Shown: in pieces, positions 1,460-61,831 of the stretch
Numbering within the stretch: position 1 is the first letter of the stretch
Layout of the letters: the number at the start of each line of letters is the position of its first letter
NCBI GenBank assembly: GCA_030068145.1
Contig: JAPJBO010000556.1
Coordinates: 87,988 to 151,987 of the forward strand
Source: Diplonema papillatum
Taxonomy: Eukaryota; Euglenozoa; Diplonemea; Diplonemida; Diplonemidae
Reading direction: 5' to 3'
DNA length: 64,000 nt
Position numbers and translations under genes: made by a program
The notes under the pieces: model-generated
What the model was told of the DNA's origin: nothing
What the model saw: the letters and a program-made list of their open reading frames with translations, nothing else
The model's database searches: none

Positions 1460-1957
1460 GTAAGCCTCGCATCTCTTTCAAACGTTGTTCCGGCGCTCAC
1501 GCCGGACCCTTGCCCCGGCGGGCTGGCGGGGCCCTTCTCCGAAAGCTTCGAGGCCGGCTTCGGCGGCTGGACTCAGTACCCTGCAAGTGTGGTAGATGAC
1601 ACGCAATGTGTTGTCGACAAACGACAAGCAACAACCAACAACAGCGACGCCCAAAGTACGAAGAACAACACTGTAACCATACCAAGCCACCCCGCGTCAC
1701 TAGATCTCACCTAACTTCACTGCACTTCACTTCACTTCACGTCGTTCTAACAGCACAATGAAACCTTCCTCCCGTCTCACAAGTCAAACGGAGACTTAAA
1801 AATCGACCGCTTAACACTCGAAACAGTCTAATAGCCCTCGGAAAGTCAAACGGAGACTTCACAAAATCGACCGCTTATAGCCAGAAACAGTCTAAAAGCA
1901 CCCGCTAAAAAACAAAAAAAAGAGTCTCAAGCGAATTTTCAATACGAAACACCACAG
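1460..1957 (+). other. Spliceosomal intron with an internal exon fragment
   Basis: The intron starts GTAAGC and ends ACACCACAG. It is 498 bp long and phase 1. Positions 1495-1576 are a near copy of coding positions 2331-2412 (DPCPGGLAGPFSESFEAGFGGWTQ region), placed in the sense direction inside the intron. The rest includes two copies of a motif, AGTCAAACGGAGACTT, that also occurs near 6003 and belongs to a dispersed repeat. Confidence 0.6.
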
Positions 1958-3924
1958 GCCCTTCATACGCGAGTGATGGATTGTCGTACATGTACGTCGA
2001 AGCCTCGGGTGCTAACTACCCCTACAAATCGGCGCTGCTGACGTCACCCTGCTTCAACCTCCCGGATGTCGGAATCGTGGTGCTGACGTTCGACTACCAC
2101 ATGTACGGAATCACCACGGCTGTCGAATTGGATTACGGGCCGCTGGCCCTGGAACTGAGTGGGGACGGCGGCGTGTCGTGGTCGGAGGTGTGGGCGAAGG
2201 AAGCGAACCAAGGGAACGGGTGGACGCACGCCCTCGTGAGCCTCGAGGGGCGCTCCGGCGACGTCCGCTTTCGGTTCTCCCGCGTGACCGGCAGCTACTG
2301 GTCGACGGACGCCGCCGTCGACGCGTTTCGGCTCACGCCGGACCCTTGCCCCGGCGGGCTGGCGGGGCCCTTCTCCGAAAGCTTCGAGGCCGGCTTCGGC
2401 GGCTGGACGCAGAGCCCCGCGAACGACGTCGACTGGACCCGATACTCAGGCGGCACGCCTTCCACTTCAACCGGGCCGTCGGCCGCCGCAGCCGGCTTCA
2501 CGTACGTATACGTAGAAGCGTCAGGCACGGGAAGCCCGTCGAAACGGGCCATTTTGAACTCGCCGTGCGTTAACCTGCACCAGGCGATATCCGCGACGTT
2601 TTCGTTCTCGTACCACATGTACGGGCAAGCAGCGGAGTTCGGTCAGTTTGCCCTCGAAGTGACGGCGAACGGCGGCGCGTCGTGGGGCGTTTTGTGGAGC
2701 GAAGCGGCGATGAAAGGCAACGTCTGGCTCGTCGCTGAAGTCGACTTGGCGGCGTATCTAGGGCTGGACGTGCAGCTCCGGTTCAACCGGGTCACGGGGA
2801 ACGGTTGGCAGACCGACGTCGCTGTCGACGACGTGAAAATGGCCGTGTTTTACTACACGGCGGCGGAGTCGATCGTCGCGTCACACAGCGAAAGCTTCGA
2901 AGACGAGCACACGGTGACCAACCTGCCGAAGGAACCGTTCTCCGTCTGGACGCAGACGACCGCCGACGACCTGGAATGGACCAAACGCTCCGGCCCGACC
3001 CCCACGGTAGGGACCGGCCCCGCTGCTGCGTACAACCACGCGTACTACGCGTACGTCGAAGCATCCGGCGCGGGCGTCGGGTACCCGCGCAAGCGGGCGG
3101 TTCTCACGGGGCCGCGGTACTCCCTCCGCGAAGCGAAATCGGCTGTTTTTTCGTTCGCGTTCCACCTGCATGCGGCGACCGAAGGAGCCGGCGTCGGGTC
3201 GCTGACGCTCGAAGTGAGTGGCAGCGGGGGCGTCGAGTGGGAGGCGGTGTGGAGCGCCGACCAGAACCAGGGGAACGGGTGGGTGCCCGTGTCGGTGGGC
3301 CTCGCGGATTTCGTCGGGTGGGACCTGCGGCTGCGGTTCGTGCGGCTGACCGGAGAACACGAGGTGGCGGACGCGGCGATCGACGCTCTCCAGCTGACGG
3401 TATCTTTCTGCCCCGGCGGCTTTGCCGGCAGCCGGGAGGAGAGCTTCGAGGCGGGGTTCGGGCTGTGGGGCCAGAACGACGACGGCGGCGACCACATCGA
3501 CTGGCTGCGGAAGGACCGCCAGACGCATTCGGCGCTCACTGGGCCCACGAACGCGTTCGACGGGGAGTACTTTGTGTACGTCGAGTCTTCGATGGTCAAC
3601 ACGCCGGCCAAAAGGGCGATCCTCAACTCACCCTGCTACGACCTTCGGGCAGCGAAGACGGCGGAGTTCTCGTTCGCGTACGAGATGCACGGGAGGGGCA
3701 TCTTCGGAACATACGGCCTCGAGATCAGCACGAATGACGGGGCGTCGTGGGCCAGCCTGTGGAGCATCAGCACCTCGCAGGGCGACATGTGGCACACGAA
3801 GGTCATCGACCTGGCATCGTACCTGGGCTCCGTCATCCGCCTGCGGTTCAACAGGGTCACAGGCGCAGCCGGAGACTACGAAACCGACGCCTGCCTCGAC
3901 ATGGTCAAGCTCACCGTCACGTAA
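1958..3924 (+). CDS. MAM-repeat protein, main 3' exon
   Basis: The frame is open for about 655 codons and ends in TAA at 3922. It encodes the C-terminal half of one MAM domain, then three full MAM domains that start near ESFEAGFGGWTQ, ESFEDEHTVTNLPKEP and ESFEAGFGLWGQ. Each repeat shows the family pattern: an aromatic-rich start, a GPT-S-TG linker, YVYVE-S, a SPCxxL turn, a F-F-YHMYG strand, G-SW--LW, and LRFxRVTG followed by A-D--KL. MAM modules mediate extracellular adhesion or receptor dimerisation. The protein stops one residue after the last domain's KLTV strand, with no membrane segment or GPI signal, so it may be secreted. The N-terminus lies outside the window. Internal repeats are diverged, unlike the nearly identical upstream exon copies. 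Confidence 0.8.
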
Positions 3925-13180: not shown

Positions 13181-13995
13181 TGTCCACGTACCTTACTTAC
13201 GGCAGCGAAAGAGCGAAGGCATATTTCTTCGAGGCGTTTGCAACGAGCCGTGCCTCTGTTCTTTCGGAAACAACATGGCGCGCGGGAGGGTCGCACCCAA
13301 TCGGCTCAACTGCGGTTGATCGAGGGTGACATCAATTGCACTTATCGGTGTATGTCTTGGCTCTGGGAACGATGAAGACCGCGGCCAGACGCGATAGTCA
13401 ATGGGAATTGCAGAAGCATAAGACTCATCAGGTCGTCGAACGCATTAGCGGGCTGGGTTCGCCCATGCCCATCAGCAGTTGAGTGTCGCTTGAAAATCTA
13501 GTCTCTCAGACTGCGTTCGACTCTCGATTCGACGATGATTGGCTTGCTGATCATTATCGATCATGTGGAACGTGTTGGTCACCGTCGTTCAAAGGATTCG
13601 CTAACAAACAAATATTTTGTCGGTTTGCGGGTTTGCGGGTCACTCTCCCTATTTTGCCGGAATTTTGTGTAAATTGCTGGGAGTCCTGTCTTGATTCATT
13701 GTGGTCGAAAAAGAAATAGAGCATAGGTGGGCTCACCTGCCAGTGTTGCATGTCTTTGCCTCTGCCTCCTCTCCGGCCTCAAACCCTTCAGTGTCGCGGT
13801 GGCAAGCAACAGCAGGATCTGCCGACCGGAATCCCCGGTACTGCGGTTGATTCCCCAGATGAATCTGCAGAAAAGGTAGTACGCGTACTGCTTTCAGCAT
13901 GTGTACAAAAAGAAACGAAGAAAATTAACGTGCTGGAATCAGTACGTTCAGCATGCTGAACGTAAGGCCTGAGCACAGCTAGGAAGACCACTCGA
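13181..13995. other. No gene seen
   Basis: No supported gene or repeat. A motif resembling ACGTACTGCTTTCAGCATGT near 13880-13960 is a partial inverted repeat. Confidence 0.35.
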
Positions 13996-14330
13996 TCACG
14001 AAACCCAAGCACTACTCTACGAGAAAATACAAAAAAAAACGCGGACAACAGACCGGTACGGGCTACAAGGCAACCCCTGCTCAACTTAAAGAACTCAATG
14101 CTCAACTTGTAGAACGTGGGGGGCCCAAGACTACACTCCACGAAGGAATGTACTTGGTGTCGGTCACAAACAGTCCCGGACATGGCTAGCCATAACCCAT
14201 AACGAAAGCGTGCACTAAATATGCAACCCGTAACCACATAGCCCTTTCTTGCTTTAAGAGAACCCATTCATGAAGGAGACCCTAAAACCCCGGAATCTTC
14301 AAGCGAACTTTAACTCTAAAAGCGTGGGTA
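13996..14330 (+). mobile_element. 5'-truncated Penelope-like element (3' UTR only)
   Basis: The segment matches 30110-30420 downstream of the intact gene from ACCCAAGCACTACTCTACG to the CAAGCGAACTTTAACTCTAA tail. It has no coding sequence upstream, as expected for target-primed insertions that stop early. A 14690-14790 segment resembles the element's flanking direct repeat. Confidence 0.6.
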
Positions 14331-14531: not shown

Positions 14532-14690
14532 TTACACTCGTCGCCACTGGCAGGCTACCTCGAGAATTTCTACGAAGCAGGTGCGTGTACCAAAAAGCAA
14601 CCGTTCTTTTGGTACAAGCGCCTGCTTTGTTGGTACAAGCGCCTGCTTTGTAGAAATTCTCGAGGAGGCTGCCAGTTGAGACGACGCGTA
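14532..14690. repeat. Palindrome built from an SDR head
   Basis: The left arm (CTCGAGAATTTCTACGAAGC, reading toward GGTACACGC) is complementary to the right arm (GCGCCTGCTTTGTAGAAATTC and beyond). In the right arm the block TGGTACAAGCGCCTGCTTTG occurs twice. Each arm is an A-end of the split direct repeat, about 55-60 bp. Confidence 0.55.
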
Positions 14691-14790
14691 GAAGAATGGA
14701 GGTAGCACACGACCAGACCGACAGAGACCACCGCAAGATTCCCTTGCCTTTTTCCTCATTCCTTAATAACAGCACACCCTGTTCGATGCG

Positions 14791-23532: not shown

Positions 23533-23659
23533 AAAAAAAGAAGCAAAACCCCGGGCGTCGATTGCCCCTCCGCCTTTTCTTCCCCCCCCCCACCCAGCTT
23601 CCAACGACCCCCACCCAGTGCGAATGTGCTCGTGGTGTCGGTCACAGGAGTCCTTTTTT

Positions 23660-23875
23660 TGTATAGGCACCCGCTTTGTAGGAAATGCTTGAGGAGACTG
23701 CCAGTTGCGATAGATCAAAGGAGGTAAATGTGCTGTAGCCCACACAAAACACAGGTGAATCTGGGTTTAGTGGCGGGCGTAAGCGTTCAACAAAAAAGAC
23801 CCACTTTGTAGTTGTATTGTTTTCTCCCCCTCTAGCCTCCTTCGAAATGAGCACAGGGCAGTCCCTCGAGTATTT
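23660..23875 (+). mobile_element. Solo SDR inserted in the Penelope flanking repeat
   Basis: It starts GTATAGGCACCCGCTTTG and ends CCCTCGAGTATTT. The uninterrupted paralogue at 30628-30645 reads GGAGTCTTTTTTGGCTAGCC, so the unit landed in a T run. Confidence 0.75.
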
Positions 23876-24287
23876 CTGGCTAGCCAAAGTGAGAAAAAGA
23901 GTGAAAGAGTACGTACAGTAGTGGGAAGGGAAGAGAACGAGTGTAAAAGAAGTTGGCTGTAGCACAAACTACCGGGCCAGCGGAGACCACCGCAAACATA
24001 TTTCTAATGTTTCCTTATCCCTCAAAACCAGCACCAATAACCCCACACCCACCCTAGCATCTCCATCAGCCAACCGGCGTACACCGAAGCAGCATGTTAG
24101 TTTTACATACGTCTTCCCACGCGAACTTTATCGCACACCACCCGTACAAAGACGCGAACCGGCAACCACAAAGTTTCTACAAGACGCACGGCCGCCGGCT
24201 GACAACAGACCGCAGCAACAAACTCCAACCCTATCAGACAAACGCCACACACCGAAAGGGCATAGATCGCCAGACGTTAACCCAGTC

Positions 24288-27200
24288 GTGCCGCACCAAA
24301 CTGCTTCTGCAGCAAGACGCGATCCTACACACTCACAGCGTCGCCAGTCCCGACTACCGCCGACGTCGAGCACCAAACCGCAGCCACACATACCAACGCT
24401 ACCATCCCCATATGACATCCGCTGCACACCGAAAAAGCCTACTAAAGCTGAAGGCGTCGTCCCACTCGAATTGAATCACGCTTACGCCACAGCAAGACAC
24501 CAGGCGTCATACACGCCGTATTGTCAAATTCCACTGCCGCCGACGCCACACACCGGACTGCAGCCACCCACTACATCTTTACCATCGCCATCAGATGACC
24601 GCTGCATACCTAAAGGGCCTCCCAGTCCTTACGTCTTCCCACGCGAACTTTATCGTACACCGCCCGCAGCAGTACACGAGCCTACTTACGCACCATATCA
24701 CCAGGTACCACCGCCAACGATGCTGAGCACGCAGACACCTAAACAAACCAGAACCCCCACACAATACCGTAACACCACACCCTCACCCATCATACACGAA
24801 ATAGACAACACCACACCGACCTCCAGCACCATCTCAGAAGCACAATCCAACGATTTTCACGACCACTCACAAACAAAACCTCTTGCCCCCAACTCCACGA
24901 GCAGTACGACACTCGCTACCGACACGCCGATCACACCTACATTCGCACGCCGCATGTCAAACCATACTACTCACGACGCATCCCCTTTACCCACTTACCA
25001 GGAAGCGATGACACACAGGACGCATCAGACTACACCTCCAAACTCGACGCCGTCCCACCAAACACACCCGCTAGCAAAACCCACACCGCCATCCGCCGAA
25101 CTTAGCTCACACCAAAGCGACGCACTCAAACACATACCGACTAACAACACCATGCCCGGGCGCGACACATACAAAGAAAGTATACAAAGGACAACCGAAC
25201 ACCCAACACCTTCGCCACCGCCTGTCCTCACACCCTTCGTACGCGATAGCCACCGCCATAAACTGCCGCACACCCGAACTCGGGAGACCTACACCCATGT
25301 CACCACAGACACTAACCTACAACAACCCAACCACACTCCATCACAACGACAAGCGACCTACAGCAACTGGCACTACCGACCTACGACTAATGCAACGGAA
25401 CACACACAAAGTACACCAGAAGACATCCCCGCTAATTCCACCAACTCACCCAGCAAAAAGGATTTCCAGAAGCACACAATCGTCCAGAACGCGATAAATT
25501 CACAGGACGCACGAAGGCCGGAGTTTCACAAGAACCCTTTCCTGACATGCTTTCGAACGAAAGCCAAATTCAACTACGGAAAACAGTTTTGGAGTGAGTA
25601 CGAAGCACGACGAAAAGAAGCCGAGAAGACGTTTCTCGCCAAGTATCATCGCAAACTGGCAAAAGGATGGAAACACTGCGACGCAGACAAAGCAAGTTAT
25701 GCCGACAAAGGAGTCGTGTATGCACTGGTAGACGAACGCGGTAACCCTCGCTACGTCGGCCAGACCAAACACACCGCGCGCGAGCGTTTAGATTCACATT
25801 GGTACGCTAGACGTAACGGCACACCCGTAGCGTCCGCGATGTTGAAAAGAAACTACCCGCTCTTCACCGTCCCCCTAATTAAGATCAAAATTGCCGACGA
25901 CGCCTCGACGGAAGACTTCAGACGTCAAGCCCTCCCGCGAGAAAACTTCTGGATTTCGCACCTCAACACCGTCTACAATGCGCAACGATACATGAGAAGC
26001 AACACAGGACAGCACCGCAGTCGCAACAAGAAGTCAAACCAAGAACGTTTCCGACCTCCGAGTGCACCGTCCAGCACCGTTTGGGCATGGATAACGGACG
26101 GCCAACTACTCATCAACCAGACCACCGAAGGCCGCGCTTACTCCATACGCAAACAACTCCACCATCTCCTCTCGCTCAACGACAAAGACCTCTTTAAATA
26201 CGATTTCAGCTCGATGGGACGGCCGAGGGCACGACGTCTGCTCAACTGGATAGCATCGAACGCACCAACTAGTAACCTACCGAAGAACGTCATCACGTTG
26301 GAAACCCATTTGAAGGATAGGCTCAGCGAAGTCACGTTGTCGAAAGTCGAGAAGAATGACGGCGCACCAGCACGACTGATCATCACACACGGAAGCGACC
26401 ACATACACCGACTCCACCTCAACGACCTACTCCAACAACCACAAATACGCGAAGCATGCCCTAACCGACGCACTCTAGATCGTACCAAGACAACGTTCCG
26501 ACTAAACCCACCCCTGTTCCTACGGGTCCAGAACGTCACAGAAGTCAGTAAAAGCCTGCCAGACCTCGCACTCGGTCCACCCGATCAATGCGCGTGCCGA
26601 CACTACCGCGGCGACAAGAACATTCAAGGACACGCGATCGGGCACCTTTTCGATATAACACAAGACAAAGGCCTCACTGAGTGTATCAAACGCGGACGAA
26701 AATACCGCTGCTACCAGGACCATCACGCACTCGAAGAGGGACTACACACTTCCATAGACGAATACGTAGAAAAATACTACCCGTCGGAACCAAACGCTAC
26801 CGCTTTTGGAACCGCGTTGAAGGACGAACTTTCGGGACGCCTAGCCACTTTACCACCATCTGACGAAGAAACTTTGAGCCGTATCGCATCGCAAGAACTC
26901 AAGAGACTCAAACAAGACTTGGTGATACTGCCCGTAGACAAAACCACACACGACTTCGGGTTTTGTTGCAAGGCGTACTACACAAACACACTACGGGAGC
27001 AAATACAAACCAGCGCCACATACAAGAAGGAAAATATAACGAAGACGCAGCTTCAACAACAACACAAGCAGCAGCTCGAGCCTTTCAAATTACAAGCACA
27101 AGGCGGACTACCATACCTCTACGGCAGTCTCAAATTGCATAAAGCCGAACCGAGTTTCCGGTGGATCGCGGGCGTAGCGACAGACATCGTAAGGAAAGAC

Positions 27201-29963
27201 AACAAGGCAGCTGCGCGCAAGCAGAAACCGAAAGCAACTACTACGAACGCCCACCTAGAGCTGTCCGGTCTGCTGAAGGCGATTATGCGGACGATAAAGG
27301 AAAAGGACCGACGGAACCAACGACAGACGGGAATAAAGAAGGTCTTCTTCACCGAGAGCCCCGACGACATAGCCCTCAACGTCAAACAGCGTCAAACCCA
27401 TCTGAGATACAAAACACCCACCGACCACGACTTCACGACAATGTACACCAACCTACCGCACGCAGATCTCAAGCGCAGGGTTGGTTCAGCTGTCGACGAA
27501 GCTTATGAATACGAGGAGAAGCACGGCAACAACCACCTCACCCGAGGAGCTAAGCAACAGGGCAAAAAGACTTTTAGTTTCGGCAAAGGGGCGAACAACA
27601 CCAGCCGAAACTATACAAAAGAAGAGCTCAAAGCCCTCCTCAACTTTGTCATCGACAATGCCTACATCGAGCAAGACGAAACCATACTACGCCAAACGGA
27701 AGGTATTCCGATGGGAGGCAATGCAAGTTCGGACCTGGCCAACTTGTATTGCTACAGTGTGGAGTCCGAGTACATAGACGGACTGCTCGCAGAAGGCAAA
27801 GTCGACGAAGCCAAAGCCCACGTCGACACATGGCGTTTCATTGATGACTTCCTCCAATGGGACTGCAAACCACCACCTCAATCACTCTATCGTATGGAGT
27901 ACAAGGAGACGACAGCAGCACGCGACGACATCGTCTTCCTTGGAATACGTATACGTATTGAACGACCCGCAGCTCCACACCCGCCACACATAAGACTAAG
28001 CGTACACCCAAAAACCTTCGGCACACGTTTCACACACTACCAGACCACCGCCCCCAAATCACAGGCCAGCGGCATTTTCAAAGGGTCTCTCATCAGGGCA
28101 ATTCGACAGACCAACCACTGGCAGGACCTTCGCGTCGAGATCCAGCGCAACGTATACGCGATGCTCGAACGGGGGCACCACCCCAGAGTTCTCTACCCCC
28201 CTTGGCAAGCTTGGCTGACGGAGGAGTTCCGTACCCTACCACGACTACACAGCCAGTTAAAACCGTTCCTAGGGTACAGCATTGCGCGTTTCAAGAACGG
28301 CAAACCGCGTATGAAAGAGCCAGATTTCGCCGGAAGACACCAACCCCTTAACTTCAAACCAGCCGAACTGCCAGTAACACCGGAGGATCTCGACTCAACG
28401 ACAGACAGCCACTCCACAACAATCCTTGAACACGAGGAAAGACCAACAAACCTCCTTTCACAACCACAACCTCAGTTCACCTTGAAGCACCGAGTAGCCA
28501 ACCTAGCTGCAACCATCACCTTAGCAGCAGCAATCGCAGCCGCCGGAGCGAGGACCATGTCTAAACTCACGAGATACACCACCACAAACTCCTGTTTTCT
28601 GCAAGCGGCCCTTAATTTGATCGCCGCCACAGACATGGCACAACAAGTAGTCACATACCACGACTGCCCAACACACACGAAAGGCGAATGCACGGCAGCC
28701 GTACACGCTTGGGTGACAGGAAAGCGGACGCAAGCAACTCTGCTGCACGTTTTCGCCAACATCGACGGACCGTTCGGCAACGGGCAGCAATGCGACCTCG
28801 GGGAAGTTTTAAGAGCCATCACCACAGCACTTCTTGACGAAAACCTCGCACACCAAACTTGCCAACAACATCGCCCTGACGCTTTCAACGGTCTACGACA
28901 TACGACGACGACGACAACTACTTGTAAAAACTGCAACCACAACAAAACCAACCCACCCGAAGACCACGACATAACCTTCCTACCTCCAATCGACAACTCG
29001 ATCCAACGGTGCCTGAACAATCACATCAAACCTGGCCCCGCCGCCGACTACAGATGCGAAGTCTGCAAAATCACCGATACCACCCTCGCAACAACAACAT
29101 TTCACCGCATTAATTCAATGCTGTTGATCCAGCTTCAAAGAGCCCGTAGACGCCAAGCGACGAACCGTACCGCTATACGCGCCGACCACTCTATCACGCT
29201 TCCAGGACAAAACACACCACTCATACTCAAAGCCGTAGCAGTACACTCCGGCCACAACAACGCCGGGCACTACGTCATTCACGCCCTCAACGATATCGAC
29301 GCTAACCAACGTTGGACTCGCTTCGACGGACTACAGACGCACTCCACTTCGACGCAAAACTACACCGACAACGAAGTATACCTCTGCGTCTACCAGCTCA
29401 AAGACAACCCACAGACAGGTGTCCCTCCACCCATTGACCCATCATACCACAACCACTATGAACCCCCAAAGCCTGCCACGCCCAGAACCACAACACAAGA
29501 GCCGGACTCGACTCAAAGCATACTTAGAGCTATGCGCGGAGACGAGACATCTACCGACACACCCACACAACGACACGACAGCACACCCCCCACACGAACA
29601 CCCACAACACCAGGCACGTCACAGACCTCCAGTACCACCGCGGAAACAGAGACCAGCAGTGAAGACGACTTACGATGTCCCCACTGCCACACACGCACAA
29701 CAACAACCGGCCTCAAACTGAAGGGAAAACAAGGATTACGGACGCACCTACGTTACTGCAAGAAGAAACCACCCAGAACTAAGTCACAAACAGAAACAAC
29801 GCTGCGAAGCACCACCCAGAAACGAGATAGATGTCCCTACTGCCACAGCGACGGACGAACCGTGGGGAAACCACGCTTCAAAAGTCTACGCCACCATAAA
29901 CCCTGGTGTAAAAAGAAGCACTGTAAACGACGCACAGCAACGACGACTACATCAGACGAATAA
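24288..29963 (+). CDS. Penelope-like polyprotein: GIY-YIG, RT, USP deubiquitinase, zinc knuckles
   Basis: One uninterrupted frame of 1891 codons. Residues 1-440 are Pro/Thr/His-rich with repeats around YVFPRELYRTPP. Residues 475-560 form a GIY-YIG nuclease: GVVY (475-478), YVG (489-491), an ARERLDSHW arginine helix and E552 in RENFWISHLN. A reverse transcriptase spans about 880-1220, with LPYLYGSLKLHK, DFTTMYTNLPH, EGIPMGGNASSDLANLY and the catalytic box RFIDD (D1186, D1187). N-terminal GIY-YIG marks the Chlamys/Naiad type of Penelope-like element. Residues 1430-1710 look like a complete USP (peptidase C19): NSCFLQAAL (C1436), zinc CxxC pairs at 1546/1549 and 1590/1593, LLIQLQRAR, NAGHYVIHAL (H1661) and WTRFDG (D1680). 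Two C2HC knuckles follow near 1797 and 1849. The frame is open back to 24039, and that stretch also encodes YVFPRELYRTPP, so translation may begin upstream. A deubiquitinase in this place is not a feature I know from the family. Confidence 0.85.
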   Translation: MPHQTASAARRDPTHSQRRQSRLPPTSSTKPQPHIPTLPSPYDIRCTPKKPTKAEGVVPLELNHAYATARHQASYTPYCQIPLPPTPHTGLQPPTTSLPSPSDDRCIPKGPPSPYVFPRELYRTPPAAVHEPTYAPYHQVPPPTMLSTQTPKQTRTPTQYRNTTPSPIIHEIDNTTPTSSTISEAQSNDFHDHSQTKPLAPNSTSSTTLATDTPITPTFARRMSNHTTHDASPLPTYQEAMTHRTHQTTPPNSTPSHQTHPLAKPTPPSAELSSHQSDALKHIPTNNTMPGRDTYKESIQRTTEHPTPSPPPVLTPFVRDSHRHKLPHTRTRETYTHVTTDTNLQQPNHTPSQRQATYSNWHYRPTTNATEHTQSTPEDIPANSTNSPSKKDFQKHTIVQNAINSQDARRPEFHKNPFLTCFRTKAKFNYGKQFWSEYEARRKEAEKTFLAKYHRKLAKGWKHCDADKASYADKGVVYALVDERGNPRYVGQTKHTARERLDSHWYARRNGTPVASAMLKRNYPLFTVPLIKIKIADDASTEDFRRQALPRENFWISHLNTVYNAQRYMRSNTGQHRSRNKKSNQERFRPPSAPSSTVWAWITDGQLLINQTTEGRAYSIRKQLHHLLSLNDKDLFKYDFSSMGRPRARRLLNWIASNAPTSNLPKNVITLETHLKDRLSEVTLSKVEKNDGAPARLIITHGSDHIHRLHLNDLLQQPQIREACPNRRTLDRTKTTFRLNPPLFLRVQNVTEVSKSLPDLALGPPDQCACRHYRGDKNIQGHAIGHLFDITQDKGLTECIKRGRKYRCYQDHHALEEGLHTSIDEYVEKYYPSEPNATAFGTALKDELSGRLATLPPSDEETLSRIASQELKRLKQDLVILPVDKTTHDFGFCCKAYYTNTLREQIQTSATYKKENITKTQLQQQHKQQLEPFKLQAQGGLPYLYGSLKLHKAEPSFRWIAGVATDIVRKDNKAAARKQKPKATTTNAHLELSGLLKAIMRTIKEKDRRNQRQTGIKKVFFTESPDDIALNVKQRQTHLRYKTPTDHDFTTMYTNLPHADLKRRVGSAVDEAYEYEEKHGNNHLTRGAKQQGKKTFSFGKGANNTSRNYTKEELKALLNFVIDNAYIEQDETILRQTEGIPMGGNASSDLANLYCYSVESEYIDGLLAEGKVDEAKAHVDTWRFIDDFLQWDCKPPPQSLYRMEYKETTAARDDIVFLGIRIRIERPAAPHPPHIRLSVHPKTFGTRFTHYQTTAPKSQASGIFKGSLIRAIRQTNHWQDLRVEIQRNVYAMLERGHHPRVLYPPWQAWLTEEFRTLPRLHSQLKPFLGYSIARFKNGKPRMKEPDFAGRHQPLNFKPAELPVTPEDLDSTTDSHSTTILEHEERPTNLLSQPQPQFTLKHRVANLAATITLAAAIAAAGARTMSKLTRYTTTNSCFLQAALNLIAATDMAQQVVTYHDCPTHTKGECTAAVHAWVTGKRTQATLLHVFANIDGPFGNGQQCDLGEVLRAITTALLDENLAHQTCQQHRPDAFNGLRHTTTTTTTCKNCNHNKTNPPEDHDITFLPPIDNSIQRCLNNHIKPGPAADYRCEVCKITDTTLATTTFHRINSMLLIQLQRARRRQATNRTAIRADHSITLPGQNTPLILKAVAVHSGHNNAGHYVIHALNDIDANQRWTRFDGLQTHSTSTQNYTDNEVYLCVYQLKDNPQTGVPPPIDPSYHNHYEPPKPATPRTTTQEPDSTQSILRAMRGDETSTDTPTQRHDSTPPTRTPTTPGTSQTSSTTAETETSSEDDLRCPHCHTRTTTTGLKLKGKQGLRTHLRYCKKKPPRTKSQTETTLRSTTQKRDRCPYCHSDGRTVGKPRFKSLRHHKPWCKKKHCKRRTATTTTSDE

Positions 29964-30639
29964 CCTCACTAACCACGGGTACCCAGTGTGCCCAGAGTGC
30001 CTTAACTGTGGCGAGCAACGAACAGTTTTACCCAGCAAATCTACCCAAAAAAAACCTTATATTAGGGCGGAAGCAACCCGCACTACGTGAAGCACCGCAA
30101 ATGTCGCGAAACCCAAGCACTACTCTACGAGAAAATACATAAAAACGCGGACAACAGACCGGTACGGGCTACAAGGCAACCCCTGCTCAACTTGTAGAAC
30201 GTGGGGGGCCCAAGATTACACTCCACGAAGGAATGTACTTGGTGTCGGTCACAAACATTCCCGGACATGGCTAGCCATAACCCATAACGAAAGCATGCAC
30301 TAAATATACAATCCGAAACCACAAAGCCCTTTCTTGCTCTAAGAGAACCCATTCATGAACGGTCACACGGAGACCCTAAAACCCCGGTATTTCAAGCGAA
30401 CTTTAACTCTAATAACAACGACGCCACCCTTCCCCAGTGAACATCCCATGAAAGTAACAATGATGACTTAGACCGATACGGGCTACATGGCAACCCCTGC
30501 TCAACATGTGTAGTGCATGCTAATCCATGTGGTTCATGAACTCAAAAGAACACAATGCTCTACATGTATGCACGTGGGGCGGCGCAGGGCCACATTCATT
30601 GCGAATGTGTTCGTGGTGTCGGTCGCAGGAGTCTTTTTT
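29964..30639 (+). other. Penelope element 3' region
   Basis: No gene. Positions 30110-30420 are the source-type sequence for dispersed copies at 8205 and 13996 and the related inverted copy near 13010. A second TGGTGTCGGTCGCAGG block follows at 30613. Confidence 0.6.
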
Positions 30640-31075
30640 GGCTAGCCAGAGAAAGTAACAAAGAGTGAAAGAGTACGTATGGTAGTGAGTAGAGAAGAGA
30701 ACGAGTGTAAAAGAATGGAGGTAGCACGGACTACCTGACCAGCGGAGACCACCGCAAAAAGATTTCTTACCTTTTCCTTATCCCTCAAAACCAGCACCAA
30801 TAACAACGACCCCACCCGGCCCCCGGCACCGTTCGTTCCCTCCTCCCATTAAAAAATCCAGTGTCCCGAAGGTACCCACAACTGCCCTGTGGCACACTGT
30901 GGCGAACTACACGAGAAGATTGTTGATTTTCTTTCTTCTTTTTTGCGTTGACCATCGTCGTAGAAACACCTTGGTCCAAGCTGGATTGCAGGGCTTGCGC
31001 AGCTCTTTTGTCTTGGAGCTTAATACCTACTGAAAATCAGTACGTAGGATCGGGCAAAAAAGAAACAGAGCATAG

Positions 31076-32995: not shown

Positions 32996-34558
32996 AGGTA
33001 GTGAAGCGACGGTATGCGTGTGCTGTGCCTTTTTGTAGCGTCCCTACACTACGTGTACCACGTAGCATTGCTGGCCGCAAAATGGCCGCCAGGCTGACCG
33101 TTGTTTGGCAGACAGAGAACAGACGCCGGGATTCCTGCGCTTCAGAGCCGTGCAGGAAGAGGGCGAATGCTGTTTTAACTGTTTCAGGGGCGAAAGATAG
33201 GGGAATTGTCACGAACTCTCCTTGTCCCTTGCTTGGTCGGTCAGATTTCACCAAATGCTGAGGCACAACGCGCATGACATCAAAGGGAAAGTGTGGAGCC
33301 AATTCAACCTAACAACTAACGAACTTGCGAACGGGGTGAAAGGAATGGTTTGGGCGAATCAACGCCCACCAAGACAATCACCTTCCATCCCATTGTTTTT
33401 TCTTGAGTGGGATGAGCACGCAGTCTTTTTCCCTCCGAGGTTTTATTGTCGCAAACGAATCCCCGTGTGCAGCGGGCGGTGCCCACGGCACACGGCACCA
33501 AGCATCCATGCGGAGCATCAAGCTCGTACAACAGCCAGCGCACACGTATCAGGCTGCCACACAAACCCACATCATCGCACACACACGTATCAGCCTAGTG
33601 TTCCTTCCGCGTGGAGGCACAAGGAAGAGGGCCTCCGCAGGAGCGCCTACCCCCGCGAGTAATAAGGTGCCTCTTCCAAGGCAGGTTTTATCTAGTAAGG
33701 TGGCCGGTGCTTCTTCACGGGCCCCGACGCACGCCGCGTCTTCCTCCAAACCCTCACTGTCGTTTCTCTCCACTCTCTCTCTCTCTCTCTCTCTCCCCGC
33801 ATGTGGAAGAAGCTAGGTTCGTCACGGCAGCCATCCCAGTGAAGGGAAATAAAACTTTATCACTACCTGCGGCCTGCTGATGATATGTTATCAAGCAAGT
33901 TGAACAATCCGCTGTGCCAATTTGCTCAGCCTGCTGAAACCTGGCCAAAAAGCTCGTCGCTGCAAACCGTGGCGTTTTCACTTGAGTTCTGGCTGGCCAG
34001 CTTTGCCCTGGTACTGCAAGAGTTCCAGTACATTGCTCAGTGATCTACTTCGTCTGTAATACCAGGGTCGGGGCAGGGAAACTTCGGAGGGAACCAGCTA
34101 CTGGATGGTTCGATAGGTCTTTCGCCCCTATACCCAGCTTTGGCGAGCGATTTGCACGTCAACACCGCAACGGACCTCCACCAGGGTTTCCCCCGGCTTC
34201 GTCCTGTCCAGGCATAGTTCACCGTTTTTCGGGTCCCAACCCACCTGGTCCAGACGAAAATATCGGGGAGTATCGGGGAGTTTCGGGGAATTTCGGGGAG
34301 TTTCGGGGAGTTTCGGGGTATTTCCTTTGTGGCGACCACTTTCCCTGCAGCCGGCCTTGGCGAAGGCGGGGAGGGGGTACCTTGCGCAGAGCGGTCCCGT
34401 GTTTGGCTATGCCCCGAAGACGAAGATAGAGGCAGAAAAGGAAGGACAGACTGGGAGGTGCAGGTTGACTCGGTTTGAGACAAAGGTAGCGACAGGATCC
34501 GCTGCGGCAAGGAGAGCAGGAACCCTTCCACCAGAGGTCGTGCGGGTACAGAGACGAT
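32996..34558. other. No convincing gene
   Basis: A segment at 33203-33275 repeats 5770-5850. Positions 33620-33870 (minus strand) are homologous to 52100-52310 in the second ankyrin gene. A 10-bp minisatellite (TCGGGGAGTT type) lies at 34262-34322. Confidence 0.5.
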
Positions 34559-41461: not shown

Positions 41462-43840
41462 GTAATGGCCCAAACTTGGGCCATTACATCAATGTAACGG
41501 GCAGAATTTGACGGAAAACCACTGTTACATCAATGTAATGGCCCAAATCTGACGGAAAACCACTGTTACATCGATGTAATGGGCAGAATTTGACGGAAAA
41601 CCACTGTTACATCGATGTAATGGGCAGAATTTGACGGAAAACCACTGTTACATCGATGTAATGGGCAGAATTTGACGGAAAACCACTGTTACATCAATGT
41701 AATGGCCAAAATCTGACCGAAAACCACTGTTACATCAATGTAATGGGCCAAATTTGACCGAAAACCACTGTTACATCAATGTAATGGCCCAAATCTGACG
41801 GAAAACCACTGTTACATCAATGTAATGGGCAGAATTTGACGGAAAACCACTGTTACATCAATGTAATGGCCCAAATCTGACGGAAAACCACTGTTACATC
41901 AATGTAATGGGCAGAATTTGACGGAAAACCACTGTTACATCGATGTAATGGGCAGAATTTGACGGAAAACCACTGTTACATCGATGTAATGGGCAGAATT
42001 TGACGGAAAACCACTGTTACATCAATGTAATGGCCAAAATCTGACCGAAAACCACTGTTACATCAATGTAATGGGCCAAATTTGACCGAAAACCACTGTT
42101 ACATCAATGTAATGGCCCAAATCTGACGGAAAACCACTGTTACATCAATGTAATGGCCCAAATCTGACGGAAAACCACTGTTACATTGATGTAATGGGCA
42201 GAATCTGACGGAAAACCACTGTTACATCAATGTAATGGGCCGAATTTGACCGAAAACCACTGTTACATCAATGTAATGGCCCAAATCTGACGGAAAACCA
42301 CTGTTACATCGATGTAATGGCCCAAATCTGACGGAAAACCACTGTTACATCGATGTAATGGCCCGAATTTGACCGAAAACCACTGTTACATCAATGTAAT
42401 GGCCCAAATTTGACGGAAAACCACTGTTACATCGATGTAATGGCCCAAATCTGACGGAAAACCACTGTTACATCGATGTAATGGCCCAAATCTGACGGAA
42501 AACCACTGTTACATCAATGTAATGGGCCAAATTTGACCGAAAACCACTGTTACATCAATGTAATGGCCCAAATCTGACGGAAAACCACTGTTACATCAAT
42601 GTAATGGCCCAAATCTGACGGAAAACCACTGTTACATCAATGTAATGGGCCGAATTTGACCGAAAACCACTGTTACATCAATGTAATGGCCCAAATCTGA
42701 CGGAAAACCACTGTTACATCGATGTAATGGGCCAAATCTGACGGAAAACCACTGTTACATCAATGTAATGGCCCAAATCTGACGGAAAACCACTGTTACA
42801 TCGATGTAATGGCCCGAATTTGACCGAAAACCACTGTTACATCAATGTAATGGCCAAATCTGACGGAAAACCACTGTTACATCAATGTAATGGGCCAAAT
42901 CTGACGGAAAACCACTGTTACATCAATGTAATGGCCCAAATTTGACGGAAAACCACTGTTACATCGATGTAATGGGCAGAATTTGACGGAAAACCACTGT
43001 TACATCAATGTAATGGCCCAAATTTGACGGAAAACCACTGTTACATCAATGTAATGGGCCAAATTTGACCGAAAACCACTGTTACATCAATGTAATGGCC
43101 CAAATCTGACGGAAAACCACTGTTACATCGATGTAATGGGCAGAATCTGACGGAAAACCACTGTTACATCAATGTAATGGGCCAAATTTGACCGAAAACC
43201 ACTGTTACATCGATGTAATGGGCCAAATCTGACGGAAAACCACTGTTACATCAATGTAATGGCCCAAATCTGACGGAAAACCACTGTTACATCGATGTAA
43301 TGGGCAGAATTTGACGGAAAACCACTGTTACATCGATGTAATGGGCAGAATTTGACGGAAAACCACTGTTACATCAATGTAATGGCCAAAATCTGACCGA
43401 AAACCACTGTTACATCAATGTAATGGGCCAAATTTGACCGAAAACCACTGTTACATCAATGTAATGGCCCAAATCTGACGGAAAACCACTGTTACATCAA
43501 TGTAATGGCCCAAATCTGACGGAAAACCACTGTTACATCGATGTAATGGGCAGAATCTGACGGAAAACCACTGTTACATCAATGTAATGGCCCAAATTTG
43601 ACCGAAAACCACTGTTACATCAATGTAATGGCCAAATCTGACGGAAAACCACTGTTACATCAATGTAATGGGCCAAATCTGACGGAAAAACACTGTAACA
43701 TCAATGTAATGGCCCAAATTTGACGGAAAACCACTGTTACATCAATGTAATGGGCCGAATTTGACCGAAAACCACTGTTACATCAATGTAATGGCCCAAA
43801 TCTGACGGAAAACCACTGTTACATCGATGTAATGGGCAGA
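41462..43840. repeat. 41-bp satellite array
   Basis: About 58 head-to-tail units of 41 bp have the form ACTGTTACATCRATGTAATG followed by GGC or GCC variants, AAATYTGACSG and AAAACC. Each unit contains the palindrome or near-palindrome TACATCGATGTA. Blocks of variant units recur in the same order (about 41621, 41948 and 43304), so there is higher-order structure. The array is absent from the matching site before the second ankyrin gene. Confidence 0.95.
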
Positions 43841-43844
43841 TTAA

Positions 43845-44079
43845 ATGATATATTGTGAAACAGGGCCTCTCGCTCCCTCACACAACCTCTCTGGAATTGT
43901 GGCAAACACACGAAGATCATTAACAGTTGGTTCGCTTTCTACTTACCCTTTTACGCAGCGGCAGCTGAGACTGGAGCTAATTGCAGCACGAGACGCACAC
44001 CGAGGAGGAGAGTAATATAAAGCATCAAAACCCCCGCACTCTCATCGTGAACAGGTGCCCGTGGAAGAGGAACTGAACC
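43845..44079 (+). promoter_or_regulatory. Shared ankyrin-gene promoter and leader
   Basis: This region is conserved before the first (43845-44079), third (52372-52589) and fourth (57094-57326) ankyrin genes. A TATA-like AATATAAAG sits about 65 bp before the ATG (44014-44022). In the third copy it is AATATCATAAGG. The ATG context is GAACCATGG. Assignment as promoter is inferred from position and conservation. Confidence 0.5.
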
Positions 44080-45642
44080 ATGGGGGCTGCCATCGTAGCT
44101 ATTCCCGAGTACATCAAGGCGGGGGCAACGGCGCTTATCCTCGCCAGCCGTCAAGGACACGCAGGCGTCGTCAAAAGGTTGCTTTGGCGGACAAGTGGGG
44201 CCCGCGCCGCCGACGTGAATGCGGCAAACAACTACGGCGAGACTGCACTCATTTGCGCGAGTTCGTCGGGCGAAGAACGCATCGTGAAAGTTTTGCTGTC
44301 GGCGGGGGCCGACGTCAACGCCGCCAACAACTCCGGCTGGACTGCTCTCTTCGCGGCTTGCAGAAGAAGCGAGGTTGCCATCGTGAAAGATTTGCTGTCG
44401 GCGGGGGCCGACGTCAACGCCGCCAACAACTCCGGCTGGACTGCTCTCTTCGCGGCTTGCAGAAGAAGCGAGGTTGCCATCGTGAAAGATTTGCTGTCGG
44501 CGGGGGCCGACGTCAACGCCGCCATCAACTCCGGCTGGACTTCTCTCTTCGCGGCTTGCAGAAGAAGCGAGGTTGCCATCGTGAAAGAATTGCTGTCGGC
44601 GGGGGCTGACGTCAACGCCGCCAACAACTCCGGCACGACTGCTCTCTTCGCGGCTTGCAGAAGAAGCGAGGTGGCCATCGTGAAAGAATTGCTGTCGGCG
44701 GGGGCCGACGTCAACGCCGCCAACAACTCCGGCACGACTGCTCTCTTCGAGGCTTGCAGAAGAAGCGAGGTTGCCATCGTGAAAGAATTGCTGTCGGCGG
44801 GGGCTGACGTCAACGCCGCAGACAACGACGGCAACACTGCACTGTTTTTGGCGAGTGAGATGGGCATCGTGAAAGATTTGCTGTCGGCGGGGGCTGACGT
44901 CAACGCCGCCAACAACTACGGCAGGACTGCTCTCGTAACGGCTTGCGGAGCAGGCGAGGTGGCCATCGTGAAAGAATTGCTGTCGGCGGGGGCCGACGTC
45001 AACGCCGCCAACAACTCCGGCTGGACTGCTCTCTTCGCGGCTTGCAGAAGAAGCGAGGTTGCCATCGTGAAAGATTTGCTGTCGGCGGGGGCCGACGTCA
45101 ACGCCGCCATCAACTCCGGCTGGACTGCTCTTTTGGTGGCTTGCAGAAGAAGCGAGGTTGCCATCGTGAAAGAATTGCTGTCGGCGGGGGCTGACGTCAA
45201 CGCCGCCAACAACTCCGGCAAGACTGCTCTCTTCGCGGCTTGCAGAAGAAGCGAGGTGGCCATCGTGAAAGAATTGCTGTCGACGGGGGCCGACGTCAAC
45301 GCCGCCAACAACTCCGGCACGACTGCTCTCTTCGAGGCTTGCAGAAGAAGCGAGGTTGCCATCGTGAAAGAATTGCTGTCGGCGGGGGCCGACGTCAACG
45401 CCGCAGACAACGACGGCAACACTGCACTGTTTTTGGCGAGTGAGATGGGCATCGTGAAAGATTTGCTGTCGGCGGGGGCTGACGTCAACGCCGCCAACAA
45501 CTACGGCAGGACTGCTCTCGTAACGGCTTGCGGAGCAGGCGAGGTGGCCATCGTGAAAGAATTGCTGTCGGCGGGGGCCGTCGTCAACGCCGCCTGCTTA
45601 TTCGGCAGGACTGCTCTCTTCGCGGCTTGTTCGCGGTTGTGA
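44080..45642 (+). CDS. Ankyrin-repeat protein 1, C-terminus shifted
   Basis: A 520-residue frame starts MGAAIVAIPEYIKAGATAL and consists of about 16 ankyrin repeats (VAIVKELLSAGADVNAANNS, G-TALFAAC). Ankyrin repeats are helix-turn-helix modules for protein binding, and no catalytic domain is present. Repeats 6-9 recur as 12-15, including a shortened repeat (FLASEMGIVKDLL) that lacks four residues compared with the second gene. Repeat DNA units are almost identical, a sign of recent expansion or gene conversion. At the end a deletion near 45628 shifts the frame, so the protein stops at CSRL. The usual tail (KREREPEDPAE, ILQRVVEG) still lies downstream in another frame, at 45635-45770. Otherwise it belongs to the same family as 50784, 52590 and 57327. 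Confidence 0.75.
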   Translation: MGAAIVAIPEYIKAGATALILASRQGHAGVVKRLLWRTSGARAADVNAANNYGETALICASSSGEERIVKVLLSAGADVNAANNSGWTALFAACRRSEVAIVKDLLSAGADVNAANNSGWTALFAACRRSEVAIVKDLLSAGADVNAAINSGWTSLFAACRRSEVAIVKELLSAGADVNAANNSGTTALFAACRRSEVAIVKELLSAGADVNAANNSGTTALFEACRRSEVAIVKELLSAGADVNAADNDGNTALFLASEMGIVKDLLSAGADVNAANNYGRTALVTACGAGEVAIVKELLSAGADVNAANNSGWTALFAACRRSEVAIVKDLLSAGADVNAAINSGWTALLVACRRSEVAIVKELLSAGADVNAANNSGKTALFAACRRSEVAIVKELLSTGADVNAANNSGTTALFEACRRSEVAIVKELLSAGADVNAADNDGNTALFLASEMGIVKDLLSAGADVNAANNYGRTALVTACGAGEVAIVKELLSAGAVVNAACLFGRTALFAACSRL

Positions 45643-50735: not shown

Positions 50736-50783
50736 GATATATTGTGAAACAGGGCCTCGCTCCCTCACACAACCGCTCTGAAA

Positions 50784-52202
50784 ATGTGGCAGGCCGGGAC
50801 TACCATCGCAGCTATTTCCGAGTATACCAAAGCGGGGGCCACAGGGCTCATCCTCGCCAGCAGTCAAGGACACGCAGACATCGTCAAAAGGTTGCTTTTG
50901 CGGACAAGTGCGGCCCGCGCCGCCGACGTGAATGCGGCAAACAAGAGAGGCGAGACTGCACTCATTTACGCGAGTTGGCTCAGCAGGGAACGCATCGTGA
51001 AAGAATTGCTGTTGGTGGGGGCTGACGTCAACGCCGCAGACAACGGCGGCAACACTGCCCTGATTTTGGGCATCGTGAAAGATTTGCTGTCGGCGGGGGC
51101 TGACGTCAATGCCGCAGGCAACTACGGCAGGACTGCTCTCTTCAAGGCTTGCGGAGCAGGTGAGGTGGCCATCGTGAAAGAATTGCTGTCGGCGGGGGCT
51201 GACGTCAACGCCGCAGACAACGGCGGCAACACTGCCCTGATTTTGGGCATCGTGAAAGATTTGCTGTCGGCGGGGGCTGACGTCAATGCCGCAGACAACG
51301 GCGGCAACACTGCACTGATTTTGGCGAGTGAGATGGGCATCGTGAAAGATTTGCTGTCGGCGGGAGCCGACGTCAACGCCTCAGACAACTACGGCACGAC
51401 TGCTCTCTACGGGGCTTGCACAAGAGGCAAGGTGGCCATCGTGAAACAGTTGCTGTCGGCGGGGGCCGACGCCAACACCGCAGACATCAGCGGCTGGACT
51501 GCTCTCTTCGCGGCTTGCGGAGCAGGCGGGGTGGCCATCGTGAAAGAATTGCTGTCGGCGGGGGCTGACGTCAACGCCGCAGACAACGGCGGCGACACTG
51601 CACTGATTTTGGCGAGTGAGATGGGCGCAGAACGCATCGTGAAAGATTTGCTGTCGGCGGGGGCTGACGTCAATGCCGCAGGCAACTACGGCAGGACTGC
51701 TCTCTTCGAGGCTTGCAGAAGGAGCAAGGTGGCCATCGTGAAACAATTGCTGTCGGCGGGGGCCGACGTCAACGCCGCAGAAAACGACGGCAGGACTGGT
51801 CTCTGCGTGGCTTGCGAAGGAGGCGAGGTGGCCATCGTGAAAGAATTGCTGTCGGCGGGGGCTGACGTCAACGCCGCCAGCAACTCCGGCATGACTGCTC
51901 TCTTCGCGGCTTGCAAAAGAGGCGAGGTGGCCATCGTGAAAGAATTGCTGTCGGCGGGGGCCGACGTCAACGCCGCATACAACGACGGCAGGACTGCGCT
52001 GATGGAGGCCTGCGACAACGGCAACGAAACCATCGTGACAGAATTGCTGTCGTGCGGTGCCGATGCAAGGGCTGCGGACAAGCTCGTCGCGAGGACGAAC
52101 CGAAGAACCCGGGGTACATATTATTTCCCTTCTCTGAGGAAGAGCTGCCGCGCCAAACCTCGCTTCTGTGTACCACGTGCGGAGAAAGGAGGGCACAAAT
52201 AG
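50784..52202 (+). CDS. Ankyrin-repeat protein 2, new start and captured tail
   Basis: A 472-residue frame begins MWQAGTTIAAISEYTKAG and carries about 13 ankyrin repeats, including shortened ones (ALILGIVKDLLSAGADVNAA). In relatives the start is MGTTIA or MGAAIV, preceded by a leader of about 150 bp. Here that leader is deleted, which joins the upstream AATGTGGCA to the GGGACTACCATCGC of the coding region and supplies a new in-frame ATG. The TATA-like element is lost with it. The C-terminal tail typical of the family is missing. After ADARAADKL the frame runs into a dispersed repeat also present inverted at 33620-33870, adding VARTNRRTRGTYYFPSLRKS and a short rest. Expression is doubtful. Confidence 0.6.
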   Translation: MWQAGTTIAAISEYTKAGATGLILASSQGHADIVKRLLLRTSAARAADVNAANKRGETALIYASWLSRERIVKELLLVGADVNAADNGGNTALILGIVKDLLSAGADVNAAGNYGRTALFKACGAGEVAIVKELLSAGADVNAADNGGNTALILGIVKDLLSAGADVNAADNGGNTALILASEMGIVKDLLSAGADVNASDNYGTTALYGACTRGKVAIVKQLLSAGADANTADISGWTALFAACGAGGVAIVKELLSAGADVNAADNGGDTALILASEMGAERIVKDLLSAGADVNAAGNYGRTALFEACRRSKVAIVKQLLSAGADVNAAENDGRTGLCVACEGGEVAIVKELLSAGADVNAASNSGMTALFAACKRGEVAIVKELLSAGADVNAAYNDGRTALMEACDNGNETIVTELLSCGADARAADKLVARTNRRTRGTYYFPSLRKSCRAKPRFCVPRAEKGGHK

Positions 52203-52371: not shown

Positions 52372-52589
52372 AATGAAACAGGGCCTCACACAACCGCTCT
52401 CTCTGGAAATGTGGCAATCGAACGAAGATCAGTAACAGTTGGTTCGTTTTCTACTTACCCTTTATGCAGCGGCAGCTGAGACTGGAGCTAATTGCAGCAC
52501 GAGACGCACACCAATGAGGAGAATATCATAAGGCATCAAAAACCCCGCACTCTATCGTGAACAGGTGCCCGTGGAAGAGGAACTGAACC

Positions 52590-57070: not shown

Positions 57071-57326
57071 ACAGTTTGTTCTTATTTAAATGACATACTG
57101 TGAAACAGGGCCTCTCGCTCCCTCACACAACCGCTCTCTCTGGAAATGTGGCAAACGAACGAAGATCAGTAACAGTTGGTTCGTTTTCTATTTACCCTTT
57201 ACGCAGCGGCAGCTGAGACTGGACCTAGTTGCAGCACGAGACGCACACCAATGAGGAGAATATTATAAGGCATCAAAAACCCCGCACTCTATCGTGAACA
57301 GGTGCCCGTGGAAGAGGAACTGAACC

Positions 57327-60890: not shown

Positions 60891-60895
60891 GTGCC

Positions 60896-61831
60896 TTGGA
60901 CCGTTTCCCACCTCCTGTGGCGGGGCGACGCGGACGTCCTCTCCTGTCGGAGCCCCCGCTCTCCCCCGGCGAGCGGGAACGTCTTGTCCGGTCCGCGAAC
61001 ACGTACATTGGGGATGCCCTGGCGCTGTCCACGCGTCGCGGGATCCACTCCGTGTATCGCCGTTTTCTGGAGTTCCGGCGCCACTGGGAAGCGGTGTCCG
61101 ACGATCCCCTCGACGTCCCGACGGCGCTGGTCCTGTTTGTGACTCGGCTGCTGGCCCGCGGGGATATCTGCGCAGCTTCTGCGGTGCAGTACGTCGTGAA
61201 CGTTCAGTCGGCCGAGAAGCGTTTGGGGCGACCTGTCGACAGCCAGCTCGTCAGGGATTTTGTCAGGTCTCTGAAGCGGGCGGGCGCGATGAAGCCATCG
61301 AAGCAGGCCGTCCCGGTGACGAAGGACGAACTGCATCATGCTGTTCGTTTGGAGTCGGATCCCGGCGTGCGGGTTGCGTTGGCCTTGGCATGGCAGGGGG
61401 CTGCGCGCGTGGACGACGTCCTGACGAGGAAGGCCGAGCACATCACCGAGGGTGCCGGTTTCTGGGCGGTAAACTGGGTGGGCTCGAAGTCGGATCCTTT
61501 CCGCCTAGGTCAGGTTACGGGCGTGATTCTTCCGCCAGCTCAGGACCAGGAACTTCGCTCGCTGCTGTCTCAGACGCCGCCCGGCCGCCTCCTGTTTCCA
61601 GACATCCCTTTTCGGCGAGTTGTGTCCGCGCTGAAGCGCGCCAACCTCTCCCTCACGGGCCATTCCCTCCGGCGGGGTGCCCTGTTCCACCTGTTGAGAA
61701 GCGGGGTCGACCTGCGAGTGATTCAGAGCGTGTCGCGTCACACGACGCTGAGTGCTCTGATGCGGTACCTTCCGGAAGCGGAGGTTCCGCTCGTCCGGAA
61801 CACCGCGGAGGCGTCGGCGAGTCTCCTATAG
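60896..61831 (+). CDS. Tyrosine recombinase
   Basis: A 311-residue frame shows the catalytic set of the tyrosine recombinase family: R171 in GAARVDDVL, H256 and R259 in TGHSLRRGALFHLL, H282 in SVSRHTTLSALMRY, and the nucleophile Y291. An N-terminal core-binding region (LSPGERERLVRSANTYIGDA, VPTALVLFVTRLLARGDICA) precedes it. In DIRS-order retroelements this enzyme joins a circular cDNA to the target in place of a DDE integrase. No ATG opens the frame. It is open back into the gag gene (GEGQAVGALDRF), so expression by frameshift or reinitiation is likely. In DIRS1 and Ngaro elements the recombinase is the last gene, whereas here it precedes the RT. Confidence 0.85.
   Translation: MDRFPPPVAGRRGRPLLSEPPLSPGERERLVRSANTYIGDALALSTRRGIHSVYRRFLEFRRHWEAVSDDPLDVPTALVLFVTRLLARGDICAASAVQYVVNVQSAEKRLGRPVDSQLVRDFVRSLKRAGAMKPSKQAVPVTKDELHHAVRLESDPGVRVALALAWQGAARVDDVLTRKAEHITEGAGFWAVNWVGSKSDPFRLGQVTGVILPPAQDQELRSLLSQTPPGRLLFPDIPFRRVVSALKRANLSLTGHSLRRGALFHLLRSGVDLRVIQSVSRHTTLSALMRYLPEAEVPLVRNTAEASASLL

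Follow-up and report, generated by a model that had tools for sequence, protein, structure and literature searches.

A probable Penelope-like element with an N-terminal GIY-YIG nuclease and a fused ubiquitin-specific protease domain in Diplonema papillatum

Among Penelope-like elements (PLEs), the members of the Chlamys/Naiad clade, reportedly described by Craig and colleagues in 2021, are said to carry their GIY-YIG nuclease at the N-terminus. The clade is further marked by a CxC motif in the linker and by additional sequence between motifs A and B in the fingers of the reverse transcriptase (RT), and the CCHH motif of the nuclease has been lost in Chlamys only. The present analysis concerns a long open frame in a 64,000-nucleotide stretch of Diplonema papillatum DNA (assembly GCA_030068145.1, contig JAPJBO010000556.1, positions 87,988 to 151,987 of the forward strand; hereafter the window). 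Judged from its sequence, the frame very probably belongs to a full-length PLE of the N-terminal-nuclease type that has gained a C-terminal ubiquitin-specific protease (USP) domain and finger-like motifs. For one PLE protein, DNA nicking and the priming of reverse transcription have been reported in vitro (PMC11167929), and Penelope of A. vaga is reported to have a 218-bp pseudo-long terminal repeat (pseudo-LTR) with a 9-bp target-site duplication (TSD), TSDs of 8 and 10 bp also being described (PMC3846280).

Deubiquitinase-type domains are already known in other transposons. Ulp1-like proteases are encoded by NeSL and a Utopia element from nematodes (PMC4640811). Ginger1 carries OTU or Ulp1, Mutator carries Ulp1, and a Trichomonas protein has C19 next to transposase_11 (PMC2836005); Helentrons carry OTU and the Gypsy-like Burro carries ubiquitination-related motifs (PMC6431247). 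Like the frame described here, the non-LTR retrotransposons NeSL and Utopia join a retroelement open reading frame (ORF) to a ubiquitin/SUMO-type cysteine protease, but theirs is Ulp1 and not C19, lies N-terminally and is accompanied by a restriction-like endonuclease (PMC4640811). Ginger1 and the Trichomonas transposase_11 protein likewise combine a transposase with a deubiquitinase-type domain, which in the Trichomonas protein is even C19; both differ in being DNA transposases with no reverse transcriptase (PMC2836005). The fused USP is, as far as searched, a new part in a PLE. No USP-bearing PLE was found in the literature, a weak claim given that the search was narrow and did not include the principal paper on PLEs with an N-terminal nuclease.

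The frame runs without interruption for 2013 codons to a stop codon at 29961–29963, as originally predicted; position 24039, at which it was then taken to begin, holds no start codon. An ATG in frame is first reached at 24720, leaving 1747 codons. Residue numbers are nevertheless counted from position 24039. From the N- to the C-terminus, this single frame encodes a GIY-YIG nuclease, a linker with a CxC motif, an RT, a USP domain of peptidase family C19 and two finger-like CxxC motifs, neither of which gave a Pfam match above cut-off (Table 1). The region upstream of the first ATG (24039–24719) is open and Pro/Thr-rich and contains YVFPRELYRTPP twice (24111 and 24633); its codon usage is unlike that of the rest of the frame (0.02 bits).

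By profile, the identity of the predicted USP domain is certain, whereas the GIY-YIG and RT assignments are weak by the same measure. The similarity to C19 claimed in the original prediction was checked by profile search, in which Pfam UCH (PF00443) matched the whole protein with E=1.1e-11 and the USP segment alone with E=4.2e-13 (49.9 bits, cut-off 23.9), in both cases over profile positions 6–254 of 254. The match covers residues 1515–1785, and not 1420–1715 as first placed, while the motifs named at that time are indeed present (NSCFLQAAL, CKNC, CEVC, HxG..GHY and WTRFD in the motif scan). The catalytic residues Cys1519, His1744 and Asp1763 and both zinc pairs (1629/1632 and 1673/1676) were located. 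The best matches of the domain in the PDB were ubiquitin carboxyl-terminal hydrolases 8 (E=8e-4) and 7 (E=5e-3), aligned in pieces.

The RT shows DK, KLHK, motif A (DFTTMYTNLPH), motif B (GIPMG) and motif C (FIDD). The reference PLEs with which it was compared come from apparent host contamination in a Bathymodiolus symbiont assembly. One of them, L003 (G002:C405), is a canonical PLE, with an RT above the Pfam cut-off and a GIY-YIG domain, also above cut-off, on the same contig (391–660). The window RT aligns collinearly with that of L003 through DK, KxHK, motif A, motif B and RFIDD, and has about 40 residues more between motifs A and B, for which an alignable stretch exists in G002:C86. L003 had been picked by a motif-A pattern, and the part following this motif was hence tested separately: its hhalign score of 27.4 exceeded all 100 shuffles (maximum 20.0). 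The part before motif A was no better than shuffles, 3 of 100 reaching its score.

A second RT type present in the mussel-symbiont and related assemblies fits the window RT far better than canonical L003. The window protein matched the PLE-type copies G007:C2 (E=4.3e-9), G007:C17 (1.7e-7), G007:C7 (7.1e-6) and G002:C86 (4.6e-5), with no match in G075 at E up to 1. When query residues 1–1420 were compared locally, matches were obtained to L043 (5e-11), L045 (2e-10), L051 (6e-10) and L026 (7e-8), weak ones to L044 (0.39) and L003 (0.045, in the nuclease), and none to L046 and L047. The window RT and the better-matching copies share R[YW]IAG after KLHK and, between motifs A and B, a segment missing from L003; no nuclease was seen upstream of the matching mussel copies. 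On these comparisons, the RT is Penelope-like and has an A/B insertion. The second type is presumably Naiad-like; its copies are decayed and unlabelled. A PDB search with the RT gave chance matches only.

The eight loci L003, L026, L043–L047 and L051 (in G002, G007 and G075) are apparent host retroelements, comprising the canonical PLE and the second PLE type, and several of the PLE copies in these assemblies carry in-frame TGA codons. Their occurrence in mussel-symbiont and related assemblies looks like contamination, which served as a supply of PLE sequences; G007 and G075 are presumed to carry animal DNA.

For the nuclease, Pfam GIY-YIG matched residues 557–596 of the whole protein (E=0.005), and hhalign aligned it with the GIY-YIG of L003 over 84 columns (E=2.2e-4), scoring 29.3, whereas 60 shuffles reached 19.8 at most. 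A C-x2-C between GIY and YIG is present in the L003 nuclease and absent from that of the window. The nuclease part also gave one weak match in a phage collection (E=4e-3) and a homing endonuclease in PHROGs (0.011), in which nothing was found for the RT or the USP; a PDB search with the nuclease gave no match.

Other classes of element were considered and rejected. An LTR retrotransposon was set aside as the Pfam hits with E up to 1 included neither integrase nor RNase H and a GIY-YIG domain is present. A long interspersed nuclear element or a group II intron was discarded on the basis of G002, in which both hits of the whole protein at E up to 10 fell in C86, the pre-screen having passed only two candidates; the same assembly holds 22 matches of a group II RT family.

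Further relatives were sought in two contig collections, viral_contigs and genome_contigs, with six exact 8-residue patterns, the reach of which is limited to close relatives. Such scans found no relatives of the whole protein in either collection, and none of the RT part or the USP part in viral_contigs, where nothing was found with the L003 RT or the C86 fragment either. The motif-A pattern occurred in no stretch of viral_contigs and in nine of genome_contigs, eight of which were dropped as short frames or unrelated-looking proteins, L003 alone being PLE-like. In the class of G004, none of 194 genomes matched the RT at 1e-5, a result of little weight as the scan had no known positive as control.

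Several lines of evidence place the nuclease, the RT and the USP in one gene within one element, namely the continuous frame, codon usage, strand composition and the bracketing repeats. Scored on the synonymous codon table of the nuclease–RT part, the USP reached 0.147 bits per codon, within the range of five cross-validated nuclease–RT chunks (0.070–0.194), as against 0.027 and 0.038 when read in the other two frames. The coding strand is A+C-rich throughout the frame, the USP reaching 0.654 compared with a maximum of 0.599 in 61 other 900-bp intervals. Both the USP and the nuclease–RT parts are bracketed by terminal direct repeats and a probable TSD: 30597–30817 matches 23616–23658 plus 23873–24054 with 84.3% identity over 223 columns, a nested repeat being left out of the alignment. 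The pattern AACGA-C(3-6)-ACCC occurs only twice in the window on both strands, as AACGACCCCCACCC and AACGACCCCACCC, giving a probable TSD of 13–14 bp. The element thus reads as a complete insertion at about 23617–30804. In view of the values given for A. vaga, the sizes of the terminal repeat and the TSD fit known PLEs (PMC3846280).

The nested repeat is absent from the 3' terminal repeat, and copies of part or all of 23650–23878 are found elsewhere in the window. Together with the copy in the 5' terminal repeat (23654–23878), they form a family of about 220 bp, with copies up to 94% identical, near 5411, 8498, 16262, 16898, 39878, 48259, 59276 and 63719. Rfam returned nothing in the element at gathering scores, a loose limit giving two sub-threshold chance matches, and no hammerhead was found in the element in these scans.

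Table 1. Coordinates of the element and of its parts in the window.
Feature	Coordinates	Strand	Basis
Target-site duplication, left copy, probable, AACGACCCCCACCC	23603..23616		Pattern search
5' terminal direct repeat (pseudo-LTR), two pieces around the nested repeat	23617..24054	+	Repeat alignment
Nested copy of the dispersed repeat inside the 5' terminal repeat (approximate limits)	23656..23872		Copies elsewhere in the window
Open frame	23922..29963	+	Stop-to-stop scan, translation
GIY-YIG nuclease, N-terminal, residues 558-650 (predicted)	25710..25988	+	Pfam GIY-YIG, hhalign
CxC motif (CAC, residues 851-853) between nuclease and RT	26589..26597	+	Motif scan
Reverse transcriptase, residues 954-1364 (predicted)	26898..28130	+	Matches to PLE-type copies, motifs
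RT insertion between motifs A and B, residues 1155-1194	27501..27620	+	Alignment with canonical PLE L003
USP / peptidase C19 domain, residues 1515-1785 (predicted)	28581..29393	+	Pfam UCH, residues
CxxC...HxxxC finger-like motif, first	29676..29759	+	Sequence, motif scan
CxxC...HHxxxC finger-like motif, second	29832..29909	+	Sequence, motif scan
3' terminal direct repeat (pseudo-LTR)	30598..30804	+	Repeat alignment
Target-site duplication, right copy, probable, AACGACCCCACCC	30805..30817		Pattern search

The element shares with the Chlamys/Naiad clade the N-terminal GIY-YIG, the CxC in the linker, the RT insertion between motifs A and B, the pseudo-LTRs and the fact that no hammerhead was found. 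The absence of the C-x2-C from its nuclease may bring it closer to Chlamys. It differs from the clade in the USP and the two finger-like motifs that follow the RT and in its long Pro/Thr-rich N-terminal stretch. The original prediction had taken known Penelope-like proteins to consist of RT plus GIY-YIG, a baseline in need of refinement, since the nuclease-first order fits this clade. With canonical PLEs such as Poseidon of Anolis (PMC11167929) and Penelope of A. vaga (PMC3846280), the element has in common the order of RT motifs, a GIY-YIG of like kind, terminal direct repeats near 220 bp in length and a short TSD; those elements, however, carry the nuclease at the C-terminus and have neither the A/B insertion in the RT (as seen in L003) nor a USP.

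The rest of the window holds an uninterrupted frame of 671 residues with MAM domains at 1909–3921 (Pfam E=7.9e-61, four stretches) and ankyrin-repeat frames of a 99-bp tandem unit, identified by Pfam scan, at 44077–45639 and 52587–54014, the unit being shared by the frames at 50748–52199 and 57324–58442. A long inverted duplication, with arms 92–98% complementary, occupies 54471–56223 and 60281–62187, and its frames have no Pfam match at 0.01. A satellite with a 41-bp unit (57 copies, 92% alike) extends over 41484–43835. A full-length 5.8S rRNA match (100 bits) and a separate large-subunit rRNA fragment lie on opposite strands at 13337–13488 and 34094–34235, and no small-subunit rRNA match was found in the window, the rDNA pieces being dispersed.

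A number of results weigh against the identification. Searched as segments, the nuclease and the RT both stay under their Pfam cut-offs, marginally for GIY-YIG (E=8e-4, 20.1 bits against 22.6) and by far for RVT_1 (E=0.087, 13.0 bits against 29.6). In the whole protein, RVT_1 matched residues 1195–1272 with E=0.11, and in NCBIfam the RT segment matched a group II intron RT model (0.0018, 17.5 bits against a cut-off of 300). In the comparison of the RT with L003, phmmer left the true pair outside the five best against 3000 shuffles in both directions, and Smith–Waterman gave z values of only 1.5–2.4. The TSD is C-rich, its copies differ by one base, and the alignment of the repeats extends 13 bases into the right copy. 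Nine other ORFs of the window had codon scores from -0.106 to 0.177, and because one of them exceeds the USP (0.177 against 0.147), the codon test alone is not exclusive. Single-sequence structure models were unusable (mean predicted local distance difference test scores of 37.9 for the USP and 36.9 for the nuclease–RT part), and no second coding copy of the element was found. The Penelope-like element with a fused USP that had been proposed is nonetheless supported, its nuclease and RT being backed by the comparison with PLE copies while remaining below cut-off in Pfam.

Taken as a whole, the explanation to which we lean, by a little over even odds, is a full-length PLE insertion of the N-terminal-nuclease type whose single protein includes a C-terminal USP acting in cis. 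By analogy with PLE biology, the GIY-YIG nuclease would nick DNA and the RT would copy the element RNA at the nick; the USP would strip ubiquitin from the protein of which it is a part and from others close by on the ribonucleoprotein (RNP) or at the nicked target, and a longer-lived RNP or a tolerated integration may result. Action in cis is suggested because the USP is covalently part of the replication protein, and this deubiquitination step is put forward tentatively. It is similarly conceivable, short of being probable, that the locus represents a PLE lineage with an active fused USP used in cis in replication or integration, which would be the first such PLE as far as searched.

A possible, though rather unlikely, alternative is that the main substrate of the USP is not the element's own protein but host chromatin or repair factors where the element inserts, such as clamp proteins or ubiquitinated histones, and that the target is opened or repair steered in this way. 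The domain order agrees with this, as the nuclease in the same protein would take the USP to the DNA nick, and the authors describing Ginger suggested DNA-repair factors as possible targets of such domains during transposition (PMC2836005); the sequence, however, favours chromatin no more than the element's own protein as the substrate.

It is somewhat more doubtful that the USP is catalytically dead or weak and persists as a ubiquitin-binding or folding module. In USPs, an oxyanion Asn usually stands five residues before the catalytic Cys, although not every member keeps it. To the counter-evidence above must be added that Thr1514 occupies this place where Asn was expected, and that profile positions 1–5, the start of the Cys box, are unmatched, two features in the light of which the USP may be weak or dead. 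Moreover, a Gln stands in the Cys box where the consensus usually has Asn, and strict Cys-box and His-box patterns of our own wording fail while relaxed ones match. Against a dead enzyme, the catalytic Cys, His and Asp and all four zinc cysteines are kept, and the Pfam score of 49.9 bits lies well above its cut-off. The original description of a complete USP with its catalytic residues in place therefore holds for the triad and is slightly too strong for the domain as a whole.

Improbable is the view that the frame has become a host gene, domesticated from an element and maintained by selection during the decay of the terminal repeats. It draws on the divergence of the repeats, which are 16% apart: with 8.5–9.5% change per copy, a mean of 16–18 stops would be expected in the ORF from 24720, none is observed, and none of 200 simulated neutral copies remained stop-free (a simulation of substitutions only that assumes repeats identical at insertion). 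Either the repeats already differed at insertion, as the tandem templates of PLEs allow (PMC11167929), or selection kept the ORF. Domestication is further opposed by the intact nuclease and RT motifs and by pieces resembling the 3' region and terminal repeat at 13996–14319 and 14688–14775, as in a repeat family. These pieces are likely another, decayed 3' end within the window, and further parts of the element's 3' region are also repeated elsewhere. Least credible of all, and rejected, is an assembly or annotation join of the element with a host USP gene: the junction is available in one copy only, but frame, codon usage and A+C bias run across it, and both parts lie between the terminal repeats and the copies of the probable TSD.

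The reading of a PLE with a USP acting in cis bears on a wider proposal, namely an involvement of the ubiquitin pathway in transposition, ubiquitin-family proteases having been acquired by several unrelated transposons (PMC2836005). The combination of USP, nuclease and RT in one protein would allow this proposal to be tested with a single purified protein. If the reading is true, ubiquitin removal would be a built-in step of the element's life cycle, and the deubiquitinase fusion would represent an unusual route for such an element to interfere with host protein control.

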